Below the pieces are notes generated by a model. That model searched no databases and was not told the origin of the DNA. It saw only the letters and a program-made list of their open reading frames with translations. A program made the translations under genes and the position numbers. Positions 1,400 to 28,904 of a stretch of 64,000 nucleotides of DNA are shown in pieces (the first letter of the stretch is position 1; each line of letters opens with the position of its first letter). Origin of the DNA: Prochlorococcus sp. AG-409-J16 (GTDB lineage: Bacteria; Cyanobacteriota; Cyanobacteriia; PCC-6307; Cyanobiaceae); NCBI GenBank assembly GCA_003215655.1, contig QCKB01000001.1, positions 434,001 through 498,000 of the forward strand, given 5' to 3'.

Positions 1400-1507
1400 A
1401 GGGGAATGACTGTATATGTAAACATCAGAAGAAGCTGATTCTCTATACGAAAGAAAGAGTTAAAGGACCGGCGCCCCATACGATGGGCTCATGAAAGCTT
1501 TTTAAAT

Positions 1508-2839
1508 GTGACGCTGCGTCTTCTTTTAATTCGACATGGCCTCAGCAGCTTTAACTGCGAACGTAGGATTCAAGGTCGCAATGATCTTTCTATCCTCACC
1601 GATAAAGGGCAAGAACAGGCTACTCAAACTGGCAGGGTTTTAGGGAGCCTACCTATAAATGCCATTTACAGTTCTCCATTGCAACGGGCCGCCGAAACCA
1701 CTTCCAAAATCATAAAAGCTGGTGGAATTGATCTAAACCCAGTTTTTGATGAAGGATTGCTTGAAATAGACCTATCCTCGTGGAGTGGATTAAAGCTAAA
1801 TGAAGTTGGCGAAAAGTTCCCGCAGGAGTATGAAACATGGAAGAATGATCCGAGCAACCTAGTCCTTAAAAGAGAAAATGGACAAGAATACAAACCAGTC
1901 GAGGAACTTTTATCTCAAGCAAGAATTTTCTTAAGTCAACTATTAAAAAACCACTTAAAAGGCGACAACCAAACAGTTCTTGTTGTAGGGCATAACGCAA
2001 TACTTCGCTGCCTCATACTTATTCTTCTAAATGATCCCAATAAAGGTTTTAAGAGGCTAAAGCTAGACAATTCATCATTGTCTGTTTTCAACATAACCAA
2101 AACAGATACGGAGAAATATAATGCTCAAATTGAATGCCTAAATAGCACCGCTCATCTAGATAAGCCTTTGCCTAAAAGGAATGGTAAAGCTCGTCTAATA
2201 CTTGTTAGACATGGAGAAACCAATTGGAATAGCGAAGGTCGTTTCCAAGGGCAAATCGACATCCCTCTAAATAGCAATGGAAAGACTCAAGCATTAGCAG
2301 CAGGAAATTTCCTAAAAGCTTTTCAACTTGACAAGGCCTACAGCAGTTCAATGACAAGGCCTAAAGAAACGGCCGAAGAGATCCTTAAATTCCATAAAGG
2401 AATACCCCTCTACTTAATTGATGAACTTATTGAAATCAATCATGGTCTATGGGAAGGAAAACTTGAGTCTGAAATTGATACTGACTGGCCAGAATTACTA
2501 CAAATGTGGAAGGACTCACCCGAAAAAGTTCATATGCCCGAAGGAGAAAGTATTCATGACGTATGGAGCCGCTCAATAAAAAGCTGGAATAGAATTTGCA
2601 ACGACCTTGGTGAAGGTGAAACCGCCCTCGTTGTTGCTCATGATGCGGTGAACAAAACAATCCTTTGCCATCTCCTAGGGCTATGTGCATCCGACATATG
2701 GAAAGTAAAACAAGGCAATGGAGGAGTAACAATTATCGATATAAATCAAGACCCCCTTCAACCTGACATAGTGACATGCCTAAACCTAACGGCTCACTTA
2801 GGAGGGGTCCTTGACAGCACCGCAGCAGGAGCACTTTAG
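1508..2839 (+). CDS. Two-domain histidine phosphatase (phosphoglycerate mutase superfamily)
   Basis: The 443-residue protein holds two tandem histidine-phosphatase domains. Each starts with an RHG motif: LLLIRHG with His10, and LILVRHGETNW with His235. Each domain also has a second His in its C-terminal half (VVGHNA near 162; VVAHDA in domain 2). Both active sites therefore look intact, unlike many duplicated enzymes in which one copy decays. Cyanobacterial relatives are annotated as GpmB-like enzymes or 2-carboxy-D-arabinitol-1-phosphatase, which would clear a Rubisco inhibitor; that substrate is a family annotation and is not shown here. The start is GTG at 1508, directly before RLLLIRHG. 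It is followed after 3 bases by the dihydroorotase-like gene, so the two are probably co-transcribed. Confidence 0.9.
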   Translation: MTLRLLLIRHGLSSFNCERRIQGRNDLSILTDKGQEQATQTGRVLGSLPINAIYSSPLQRAAETTSKIIKAGGIDLNPVFDEGLLEIDLSSWSGLKLNEVGEKFPQEYETWKNDPSNLVLKRENGQEYKPVEELLSQARIFLSQLLKNHLKGDNQTVLVVGHNAILRCLILILLNDPNKGFKRLKLDNSSLSVFNITKTDTEKYNAQIECLNSTAHLDKPLPKRNGKARLILVRHGETNWNSEGRFQGQIDIPLNSNGKTQALAAGNFLKAFQLDKAYSSSMTRPKETAEEILKFHKGIPLYLIDELIEINHGLWEGKLESEIDTDWPELLQMWKDSPEKVHMPEGESIHDVWSRSIKSWNRICNDLGEGETALVVAHDAVNKTILCHLLGLCASDIWKVKQGNGGVTIIDINQDPLQPDIVTCLNLTAHLGGVLDSTAAGAL

Positions 2840-25864: not shown

Positions 25865-27475
25865 ATGTCGATAAGCGTAAACAGTGCAAAGCATTCGAAC
25901 TTCTCTCCACTAAGAAAACGATTAGAGCCAGGTCGCTTAATACTTGGCTTGCTCGCAATATCCCTTGCATCCTTAGCCATATTCCCGCTAATTGGACTAG
26001 TCGCAGAAGGTCTTAAAGGCCTAAGGGATGGTTCATCCAACTTAGGAATTGATGGACCTGCACAAATCAAAGGAACATTTGAGCTGGTTATTGGTACAGC
26101 CCTGCTTGGTGGATTCCTAGGGACAGCCAATGGATGGTTACTTGCCAATTGCCGCTTTCCTGGAAGACGGTTCCTAAGAATTGCTCAACTAATTCCTCTA
26201 GCTACGCCAGCTTATTTACTTTCAGCGACACTAATTGATCTTGGCAGCATTAATGCCATCAGGATCCATGGGATGAGCTGGGGAATATTAATAATGGGGC
26301 TAACAACATATCCCTATGTTTTCTTATTAAGCACAGAAAGCTTTGCTATTTGCGGAAGAGGTCAACTAGAAGCTTGTAGAAGCCTTGGAGTAGGACCTTG
26401 GGAAAGCTTTCGCAGAGTTGCGCTACCAATGGCAATGCCTGCAATTGGCGCCGGAATTGCCCTAATGGGCATGGAGGTAATCAACGAGCTTGGAGCAGTT
26501 CAATTACTAAATATTCCAAGTATTTCTGCAGGGATCGTTGAAAACTGGGTTGCAGAAGGAAACCCAGCAGGAGCAATTGGGCTGGCAATTATTGCATTAG
26601 CAATAGTGATTACACTCTTGGCATATGAACGAACTCTAAGAAGACGTAGTAAACGGTGGAGCGAAGGTATAAACAATGGAGAGACTCATACATGGCGCAT
26701 AAAGGGTTATCGGGCACTATTAGCCCAGTCACTAGCAGCAATTCCTCCAACCTTCACTCTAGGAACTCCTATTCTTTGGGCTGTTTTAAACATCGATCAA
26801 CTTAGTAAAGGTTTCGATATTGAACTGTTTGCACTTACAGCAAGAAGTCTTGGGCTAGGCATTTCGGCAGCCTTTATAACAACTTTAATTGCATTGATTT
26901 TAGCAATCGCCAAAAGATGGCGGTCGGAAAAGTGGCTAAAAAATATCACCTTCTTAGCAGGAATTGGATATGCAATACCAGGAGCTGTAATGGCGCTAGG
27001 TATACAATCTTTTGGGATATCTAAATTATCCCTTGCACCTATTGTATTACTCCTATGGGGGTACAGTGCTCGCTTTCTAACAATAGCAAAAGGTGGCTTA
27101 GATGCAGGTCTAGAAAGGCTTTCTCCCAGTTTAGATGAAGCCGCCACTGGGCTAGGCTACCGCTGGCCAGGGGTTCTGAAACATATTCATCTTCCTCTCT
27201 TAAAAGGACCAATTGCAGTAGGGTCTCTATTAGTATTTGTTGATACCTTAAAAGAACTCCCACTTACATTTGTTTTAAGGCCATTTGATTTTGACACCCT
27301 TTCAGTACGCGTATTTCAATATGCAAGTGATGAGAGAATGGCCGAATCTCTTTTACCAGCGATGATAATTCTAGTACTAGGCTTAATCGCATCACTTGCT
27401 CTAATACCCGGACTGGATAATTCCAAAGAGAGACATTCAAGAGAAAATGTCGCCAGGCCAGCAGCCTCTAATTAA
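25865..27475 (+). CDS. futB: Iron(III)-type ABC transporter permease (FutB/ThiP type)
   Basis: The 536-residue integral membrane protein is a double-length binding-protein-dependent permease, with two permease modules of about six helices each. The EAA-type loops are visible: ACRSLGVGPWESFRRVALPM and, in the second half, DEAATGLGYRWPGVLKHIHLPLL. The pattern VDTLKELPLTFVLRPFDFDTLSVRVFQYASDER fits FutB-like permeases for ferric iron. FutA (binding) and FutC (ATPase) are not in the window. The symbol rests on family resemblance; thiamine permeases share this fold. Confidence 0.85.
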   Translation: MSISVNSAKHSNFSPLRKRLEPGRLILGLLAISLASLAIFPLIGLVAEGLKGLRDGSSNLGIDGPAQIKGTFELVIGTALLGGFLGTANGWLLANCRFPGRRFLRIAQLIPLATPAYLLSATLIDLGSINAIRIHGMSWGILIMGLTTYPYVFLLSTESFAICGRGQLEACRSLGVGPWESFRRVALPMAMPAIGAGIALMGMEVINELGAVQLLNIPSISAGIVENWVAEGNPAGAIGLAIIALAIVITLLAYERTLRRRSKRWSEGINNGETHTWRIKGYRALLAQSLAAIPPTFTLGTPILWAVLNIDQLSKGFDIELFALTARSLGLGISAAFITTLIALILAIAKRWRSEKWLKNITFLAGIGYAIPGAVMALGIQSFGISKLSLAPIVLLLWGYSARFLTIAKGGLDAGLERLSPSLDEAATGLGYRWPGVLKHIHLPLLKGPIAVGSLLVFVDTLKELPLTFVLRPFDFDTLSVRVFQYASDERMAESLLPAMIILVLGLIASLALIPGLDNSKERHSRENVARPAASN

Positions 27476-27519
27476 TCAATAATCACAGAAAGAATAAAGT
27501 ATTTTTAAGCAAAGGAAAA

Positions 27520-27537
27520 GCCCCTAAAGCTAGGGGC
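27520..27537 (-). terminator. Rho-independent terminator for the DUF4278 gene
   Basis: GCCCCTA (27520-27526) and TAGGGGC (27531-27537) form a perfect 7-bp stem with loop AAGC. Read on the minus strand, the stem is followed by TTTTCCTTT, a weak U-run, so it terminates the minus-strand DUF4278 gene (27559-27747). On the plus strand only A/G follows, so it would serve the futB side poorly. Confidence 0.75.
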
Positions 27538-27558
27538 AGAAAGAAAGAAACAAAACAA

Positions 27559-27747
27559 CTACTTAATGTAAGTAGCACCTCGATAAGTTAAAACAACTTC
27601 CTGATGCAAAGCTGAATCTTGTCTTCTTTTCAAGTAAGTTTGCCTTCGATATGTCAATTTAAGCAAGTCCTGAGGATGCGACTGAGAAAGTGATTGATGA
27701 AGCCTTAAATAAGACTTGCCCCTATAAATAAGAGTAGAGGATTGCAT
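27559..27747 (-). CDS. DUF4278-like protein with three YRG/Y repeats
   Basis: This 62-residue protein has three copies of a short motif: LIYRGKSYLR (residues 6-15), LTYRRQTYLK (31-40) and LTYRGATYIK (53-62). DUF4278 proteins of cyanobacteria carry this LTYRGxxY motif, usually one to a few copies; function unknown. The protein is basic and soluble-looking with a Ser/Gln-rich linker. A terminator follows it, and a structured region with several hairpins lies upstream, so it may have a long 5' leader. Confidence 0.75.
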   Translation of the reverse strand: MQSSTLIYRGKSYLRLHQSLSQSHPQDLLKLTYRRQTYLKRRQDSALHQEVVLTYRGATYIK

Positions 27748-27754
27748 TAATTAG

Positions 27755-27848
27755 TCCAACAGTGTCCAGGTCCCCGTTCCATGGCCTGGAGCGAACTGCG
27801 CCTTGGCAATAATCCAAGGTGAACGCTTTGTAGCTATTGCTACAAAGC
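27755..27848. other. Hairpin cluster, possible structured RNA or leader
   Basis: Between the DUF4278 gene and the flippase-like gene there are several stem candidates. The strongest is GCTTTGTAGC (27825-27834) with GCTACAAAGC (27839-27848), a perfect 10-bp stem and TATT loop. Next to it CCTTGG (27801-27806) pairs with CCAAGG (27814-27819). A weaker one, CCAGG/CCTGG, lies near 27766-27788. No protein frame fits. I infer either a 5' leader of the minus-strand gene or a separate small RNA. Confidence 0.5.
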
Positions 27849-27917
27849 CATACTGCCAAAGAATAAGTCCACAGGTCGTTCAGAGTGATACAAAACTAAC
27901 TCTGAGAACTATTGTTT

Positions 27918-28904
27918 TCAGTTCAAGAAGGACTTCCTAAAAAAGCTATAAGACTCAGCCAAGAGTGCTGCAAATAAATCAGACATCGTTGATATGACCC
28001 TATAGCTAAGGACAGCTCCTAAAAGAGAGACCTCAGGGACAAGATGAGAAACCTTTAGGAAGACGCTCGCTTCAAAAACCCCAACACCTCCAGGGGCCGC
28101 TGGGATAACAAATCCAACAGTCCATGCAAAAGCAAAGGCAGACAACCATTCGCCCCAAGAAAGATTAACGCCCAAAGAGAACGCTTCTAAACAACAGTAA
28201 AAACCGCCAAACCGGCACCCTAGAAAAAGCATCTCCACGAACAAAGGTTTGAAGGGATACCCCAGCCTTCTTGTCCCACCATCTTCAATAGGAATAGAGC
28301 AAACAAGTTCTGAATCAAGCTTCTTTAATTGTTTAACCTTATTCAATTGCAAGCTTTTTAAAAGAGGCTCGCGGAAAAATGGAAGCAAGGACAAAACAGG
28401 CACGCAACAAATCAAAGAAAAACCAGATTGCCATCCACCAAAAGGGACAAATAGAAGCGCTGCAACAACCATCAATATTGGTTCTAAGAAAACAGAAGCC
28501 AATGCATTTCTAGTATCCATATACTTTCTAAGAGCCCTTATTCTCTCTACAAAATGCCAGACTCCTCCTGGAAGATACTTGAGTAAATTAGTCTTTAAAT
28601 AAAGACTCAATACAGGCAATCCTTTAGGACTATGTCCTAGCCAAGCCAAAAGCAATGACCAAGCATATGCATTAATAAACAAGCTCAAACAGCTAGTTAA
28701 TAATCCGGCAATCAACCAACCAATAGACAATCTACTCAGTGAGAATTGACTGAATTGCCCTCCATGACCAAGCAAAACAGAAAAAACAAACCCCAGGCTT
28801 ACAAGCGTGACCCAAAGCCTTATCCCACCTGGGATAGATATGCTTAAAGGAGGAAATATTCTACGGTAAATATCTCTTAAGGCTTTTACAGTCACCATGA
28901 CCAA
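27918..28904 (-). CDS. UPF0104/LPG-synthase-TM-like membrane protein
   Basis: The 328-residue protein has about eight hydrophobic segments and matches the lysylphosphatidylglycerol synthase transmembrane region/UPF0104 family. Recognisable parts are LLKYLPGGVWHFVERIRAL and GFVIPAAPGGVGVFEASVF near the C-terminus. Members are flippase-like domains, and here the catalytic soluble domain is absent. Substrate unknown. Its start overlaps the end of larC by 13 bases on the same strand, so the two are translationally coupled. Confidence 0.88.
   Translation of the reverse strand: MVMVTVKALRDIYRRIFPPLSISIPGGIRLWVTLVSLGFVFSVLLGHGGQFSQFSLSRLSIGWLIAGLLTSCLSLFINAYAWSLLLAWLGHSPKGLPVLSLYLKTNLLKYLPGGVWHFVERIRALRKYMDTRNALASVFLEPILMVVAALLFVPFGGWQSGFSLICCVPVLSLLPFFREPLLKSLQLNKVKQLKKLDSELVCSIPIEDGGTRRLGYPFKPLFVEMLFLGCRFGGFYCCLEAFSLGVNLSWGEWLSAFAFAWTVGFVIPAAPGGVGVFEASVFLKVSHLVPEVSLLGAVLSYRVISTMSDLFAALLAESYSFFRKSFLN

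Follow-up and report, generated by a model that had tools for sequence, protein, structure and literature searches.

Probable dual nitrogen control of a DUF4278 small-protein gene by an NtcA operator and a glutamine-II riboswitch in Prochlorococcus

The window analysed here, a stretch of 64,000 nucleotides from Prochlorococcus sp. AG-409-J16, carries on its minus strand a small gene (27559..27747) encoding a protein of 62 amino acids with three YR[GR]xxY repeats, which matches DUF4278 (PF14105, 30.8 bits against a cut-off of 25.3) over residues 5-60 of 62. The protein displays no other Pfam or NCBIfam match, and a comparison of DUF4278 with solved structures returned no match at an E-value of 1 or better. 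Just 3' of the gene, a consensus scan placed a terminator-like hairpin with a T-rich tail on the same strand (27520..27537), which is weak evidence as five such sites were found against 3.5 in shuffles. The locus is bordered by a convergent ABC-transporter permease gene (25865-27475, plus strand) and, upstream, by a gene for a lysylphosphatidylglycerol-synthase-type membrane protein (28904-27918, minus strand); a LarC-type nickel-insertion gene is a further neighbour. The closest named relative among the fetched loci belongs to the Prochlorococcus single-cell genome AG-363-P19 (72% over 1,319 bases).

The original prediction had singled out the region preceding the DUF4278 gene for a 10-bp perfect stem with a 4-base loop (27825-27848), a 6-bp stem (27801-27819) and a weaker third one, all of which are present in the sequence. 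It had also described the region as devoid of protein frames and this holds as far as the support goes, only two chance ORFs of 45 amino acids crossing it (27722-27859 on the minus strand and 27803-27940 on the plus strand). We found that the minus strand carries a complete glutamine-II (type 2 glutamine) riboswitch aptamer at 27765..27828: the RF01704 covariance model matched 27828-27765 with 69.2 bits (E 1.2e-14), above the curated cut-off of 33 and over its full length (model positions 1-60 of 60). Besides this match, the Rfam gathering cut-offs gave only two tRNAs in the 64-kb window. In the RF01704 alignment, stem P1 (27819-27814 with 27806-27801, minus strand) corresponds to the 6-bp stem and P2 (27790-27785 with 27770-27765, minus strand) to the weaker one. 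The pseudoknot strands CGUUC (27825-27821) and GAACG (27779-27775), assigned on the minus strand by analogy with the crystal structure reported in PMC6698751, are both present together with the linking strand GCGC, and by the same analogy C27798 should pair with G27774. Members of this family are reported to bind L-glutamine and to raise expression (PMC6316151, PMC6698751), and L-glutamine binding is expected of the present aptamer from its family membership. The aptamer ends 17 nt before the start codon of the minus-strand DUF4278 gene, which agrees with the proposal that this gene has a structured 5' leader.

RF01704 was detected in 25 of 60 genomes, that is in 25 of the 37 belonging to the family of the window (its own genome included) and in none of the 23 others, these counts being possibly low owing to the strict filters used. 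The 25 picocyanobacterial genomes provided 57 matches, 54 above the cut-off and three below, for which 80 nt upstream were read; some of these loci are related or overlapping, so that counts of conserved sites among them are not independent events. Pairing could be followed in 56 of the 57 aptamers (L013 was not parsed). The pseudoknot is complementary at each of its five pairs in all 56, the last pair being CG in 50 and GC in 6, and two-sided changes that preserve pairing occur in P1, in P2 and in one pseudoknot pair (the first pair of P1, for instance, is CG in 34 aptamers and TA in 14), although the P2 register was picked for best pairing, which biases its count in favour of P2. Compensatory changes in relatives, which had been proposed as a check, are therefore found for the aptamer stems. 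The unusual hairpin density noted originally was likewise confirmed, since the 126 bases at 27740-27865 fold better than dinucleotide shuffles on both the plus strand (z -4.44, 0 of 200 shuffles as good) and the minus strand (z -3.33, 1 of 200). For the likely transcript by itself (minus strand, 27843-27721), z was just -0.92, with 33 of 200 shuffles as good; fold energy alone is thus insufficient and it is the covariance-model match that proves the RNA.

The 10-bp stem overlaps the aptamer by four bases and lies outside the RF01704 family structure. Its core at 27830..27843 (minus strand), GTAGCAATAGCTAC, has the form GTA-N8-TAC. Sites of the form GTA-N8/9-TAC are reported for NtcA in Prochlorococcus, with binding raised by 2-oxoglutarate (PMC5767323), and ntcA is present in the genome (368 bits). 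The box of the locus taken alone is no evidence, because the window contains nine GTA-N8-TAC matches where 5.5 are expected. Its conservation identifies it as a probable operator: of the 57 RF01704 matches, 50 have GTA-N8-TAC directly 5' of the aptamer. Within 45 nt upstream the density is 50 per 1,824 positions, about 177 times that of the remainder of the loci (23 per 148,222). The distance from the end of the box to CGTT is 3-9 nt in CGTTCA-type aptamers, which mostly precede DUF4278 genes, 10 nt in the nine loci with MNTLPLIR-type peptides that have the box, and 22-23 nt in four loci of a third group. The seven loci lacking GTA-N8-TAC include L044, in which a GTA-N9-TAC can be seen by eye.

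Upstream of the box, a putative -10 element, CAGTAT (27850..27855, minus strand), is weak, with three of six matches to TATAAT; its position follows from the profile of relatives, which have TATAAT there. In 36 main-group loci, the match to TATAAT peaks at -12 from the box (mean 3.6 of 6, against 1.8 overall), and the next best offset, +11, falls at the end of the box. A scan of named genomes for the box followed by CGTTCA yielded at least 118 stretches, and 58 distinct loci passed an aptamer filter. Among the matches listed, these comprised 48 from Prochlorococcus, nine from Synechococcus or Synechococcaceae and one from Cyanobium, with a full TATAAT at -12..-7 in 30 of the 58, five matching bases in ten and four in nine. 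Also among the matches listed, 33 of the 60 failures came from Prochlorococcus or Synechococcaceae, which indicates that the filter was too strict, and 27 from other or unnamed taxa; a looser filter passed 81 of the 118, including one Streptomyces record. Given the TATAAT profile at -12 from the box, transcription should start at about 27843, close to where the box has its first G. This predicted start agrees with that of yfr6, reported at about 20 nt 5' of the motif (PMC2864571). The GTA-N8-TAC of the locus would accordingly cover the core promoter and start, as placed by the -10 profiles, and NtcA at such a position is reported to block transcription of gifA and gifB (PMC6316151). The class-II pattern GTA-N8-TAC-N22-TA-N3-T gave two matches in the genome versus 13 for its reversed control.

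Further upstream, a second conserved element of the form TTGTAT-N5-TGAAC-N-AC is matched exactly by TTGTATCACTCTGAACGAC at 27875..27893 (minus strand). Of 39 loci, 24 carry it at positions -49 to -51 relative to the box with at most three mismatches in 14; this set excludes the two other aptamer groups (16 loci) and two loci without a box. At the same mismatch level it occurs in 20 of the 58 named loci among the matches listed, which makes it a feature of a subset of loci. Exact matches numbered nine in 40 genomes, and seven of them precede an RF01704 aptamer. One exact match (L076; genome G011, C1:56,114) precedes an ORF of 137 amino acids beginning with DUF4278-like repeats, near which no Rfam aptamer was detected at E 1, and another (L067) has no DUF4278 ORF and no aptamer with it. 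A coding origin of the element, suggested by an LYR..E frame in several loci, was discarded because an insertion in L021 puts a stop in this frame and leaves the element intact, as judged by eye; we thus treat it as DNA. We also rejected the idea that the element marks a wide regulon, since one-mismatch counts are about equal to the reversed control in many genomes (3 versus 3 in its own genome). In genome G043, the pattern gave 50 matches spread over many contigs; most of them are one and the same sequence, TTTTATCCCTTTGAACAAC, which probably belongs to a dispersed repeat.

Between aptamer and start codon lies a linker (27748..27764, minus strand) containing UUGGAC, a putative ribosome-binding region that could pair with the 5' pseudoknot strand; the ligand-free fold of the locus pairs GUUCA with UGGAC. 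The motif G[GA]AC, which could base-pair with GUUC in that strand, is present in 36 of 56 linkers, compared to 6.5 in shuffled linkers and to 5 of 81 other start regions of the same loci (L055, whose start codon was not found, is excluded from the linker and fold sets). Across the 56 linkers, no complementary motif was found for CGUUG-type aptamers. Among the 40 loci in the DUF4278 group, fold prediction gave the ribosome-site pairing in 7 (mean probability 0.16; shuffled linkers, 0.10), and among the 16 loci outside it in one. A plausible mechanism, with weak to moderate support, is that glutamine would engage CGUUC in the pseudoknot and so expose the ribosome site.

Related elements are found elsewhere. 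The genome of the window itself holds another DUF4278 ORF (L087, C5 ~79,259-79,423; 1459-1826, minus strand; 41 bits), whose 5' end carries a type 1 glutamine aptamer scoring 34.8 bits against the RF01739 cut-off of 35, and beside it an ORF that looks like PII/glnB. A second class of glutamine-II aptamers precedes MNxLxLIR peptides in place of DUF4278 genes (L052 at C5:131,609-131,663 of the same genome, L025 and L048-L056). None of the four MNTLPLIR-type peptides scanned exceeded a Pfam cut-off, and a reading of them as IF7-like factors, which they may resemble, was set aside. Three loci (L024, L035 and L036) look like hybrids of the MNTLPLIR type with DUF4278-like YRG repeats. Phage-borne copies were sought and discarded: the exact RF01704-type core pattern had no match in viral contigs, blastn of 27480-27960 had none in phage records, and a loose box-plus-CGTTC pattern gave at least 120 viral stretches, of which 10 of 120 passed a loose filter and none of these 10 held RF01704 at its gathering cut-off in an Rfam scan. 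Of the same 10 filtered stretches, one carries a type 1 glutamine aptamer and one a manA RNA. An environmental viral contig shows a type 1 glutamine aptamer at L295:3020-3071 on the plus strand (RF01739, 52.4 bits against 35).

As the predicted start lies near the first base of the palindrome, the RNA would carry the hairpin, and the palindrome could be a conserved 5'-end RNA stem serving transcript protection or switch timing, instead of or besides an operator. The complementarity of GTAGC and GCTAC fits this proposal, pair 4 being kept in 42 of 50 sites and pair 5 in 49 of 50 with a few two-sided changes, but such changes are explained equally well by dyad symmetry and, because a CRP-type dimer needs that symmetry, do not decide the matter. 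The constancy of GTA and TAC in the 50 sites is a result of the choice of pattern. Pair 4 is nevertheless mismatched in six of the 50 sites (plus G-T in two) and pair 5 in one, with GTA and TAC kept; pairs 6 and 7 of the box are Watson-Crick in only 9 and 14 of the 50, and the flanking pairs in just 21, 29 and 27. The inner and flanking pairs thus not being kept, what is shared among the sites is a 5-bp dyad, which in this locus happens to be lengthened to a 10-bp stem. The DNA reading is favoured by inner pairs that mismatch while GTA and TAC stay intact, and by the third group of four loci with the box 22-23 nt before the aptamer; the RNA stem is left an unlikely one. Judging from the sequence comparisons, the palindrome is most likely an NtcA operator at the transcription start; the description of the hairpin cluster as RNA thus stands for P1 and P2, and probably fails for the 10-bp stem.

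It is somewhat less likely still that NtcA, or another CRP-type factor, activates transcription from the second element at about -42 with the box at the start just tuning expression, in which case nitrogen shortage would switch the gene on. TTGTAT-N5-TGAAC-N-AC contains GTA-N8-AAC, keeps its distance in 24 of 39 loci and lies near the activator position of -41.5. However, it is the right half TGAACNAC that is conserved in place of TAC, and the element is absent from 15 of the 39 loci and, among the matches listed, from 38 of the 58 named ones. Published observations also point the other way, relatives being reported as lowered in nitrogen starvation (PMC2864571) and the PMM1846 riboswitch as raising expression in nitrogen excess (PMC6316151). 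The stand-alone small RNA considered in the original prediction is very improbable: the stretch folds well and the related leader yfr6 was originally reported as noncoding (PMC2864571), but a full-length cis riboswitch lies 17 nt before the DUF4278 start and this order is repeated in many loci, which leaves a separate small RNA unsupported.

We propose, with a probability of roughly 0.8, that the DUF4278 small-protein gene is controlled by two stacked nitrogen sensors, an NtcA operator and a glutamine-II riboswitch. When nitrogen is short, NtcA activated by 2-oxoglutarate would bind GTA-N8-TAC, identified by its conservation 3' of the -10 and over the start, and would block transcription. When nitrogen is plentiful, the transcript would be made and its glutamine-II aptamer would bind glutamine, stabilising the CGUUC/GAACG pseudoknot. 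Without glutamine, CGUUC may instead pair with the GGAAC/GGAC-type sequence and hide the ribosome-binding site, a step with weak to moderate support. Both layers would turn the gene on in nitrogen excess, glutamine switching on translation. More tentatively, a single conserved cassette (second element, -10, NtcA box on the start and aptamer) might run small proteins across marine picocyanobacteria, namely DUF4278 proteins both short and long, peptides of the MNTLPLIR type and hybrids between the two families. The element would then be bound by a regulator, the ribosome-binding region would imitate a pseudoknot strand, expression would pass a two-metabolite gate of low 2-oxoglutarate AND high glutamine, and the proteins would supply the restraint on glutamine synthetase that is so far missing in Prochlorococcus; we regard this extension as possible, though doubtful. 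It is to be noted that a DNA operator may be mistaken for an RNA hairpin where it abuts a riboswitch. With the layout being fixed across many loci, dual control of DUF4278 genes by 2-oxoglutarate and glutamine can be tested directly, and with it the regulation of glutamine synthetase in Prochlorococcus, which section 2.7 of PMC6316151 calls unclear.

The locus is a further case of an already described control of DUF4278 genes by NtcA and a glutamine riboswitch, to which our analysis makes modest additions: the conserved layout of operator, start and aptamer, a start region resembling a pseudoknot strand, and the second element, which roughly half of the loci share. A partial literature search found no account of the box-to-aptamer spacing, of the second element or of the linker resemblance. 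According to section 2.7 of a 2018 review (PMC6316151), PMM1846 of Prochlorococcus MED4 is a DUF4278 gene with a type 2 glutamine riboswitch and an NtcA consensus in its promoter, and that section leaves open whether such DUF4278 proteins inhibit glutamine synthetase. The present locus shares with PMM1846 the aptamer family (glutamine-II, Downstream-peptide motif), the downstream DUF4278 gene and the NtcA consensus; it differs in concerning another genome and another DUF4278 gene, with the spacing of box, start and aptamer followed here over 57 loci. The product may restrain glutamine synthetase, a role that rests on analogy as the protein has no match beyond DUF4278. It possesses the N-terminal DUF4278 part of IF17, and its 62 amino acids leave no room for the C-terminal IF7-like inhibitor part; we do not class it as an IF17. 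The arrangement is also like that of gifB (IF17) in Synechocystis 6803, where an NtcA site at the core promoter is reported together with a glutamine riboswitch raising a DUF4278-bearing protein (PMC6316151); in that system the aptamer is of type 1 (glnA-type) and IF17 is longer, whereas here the protein of 62 amino acids consists of DUF4278 alone.
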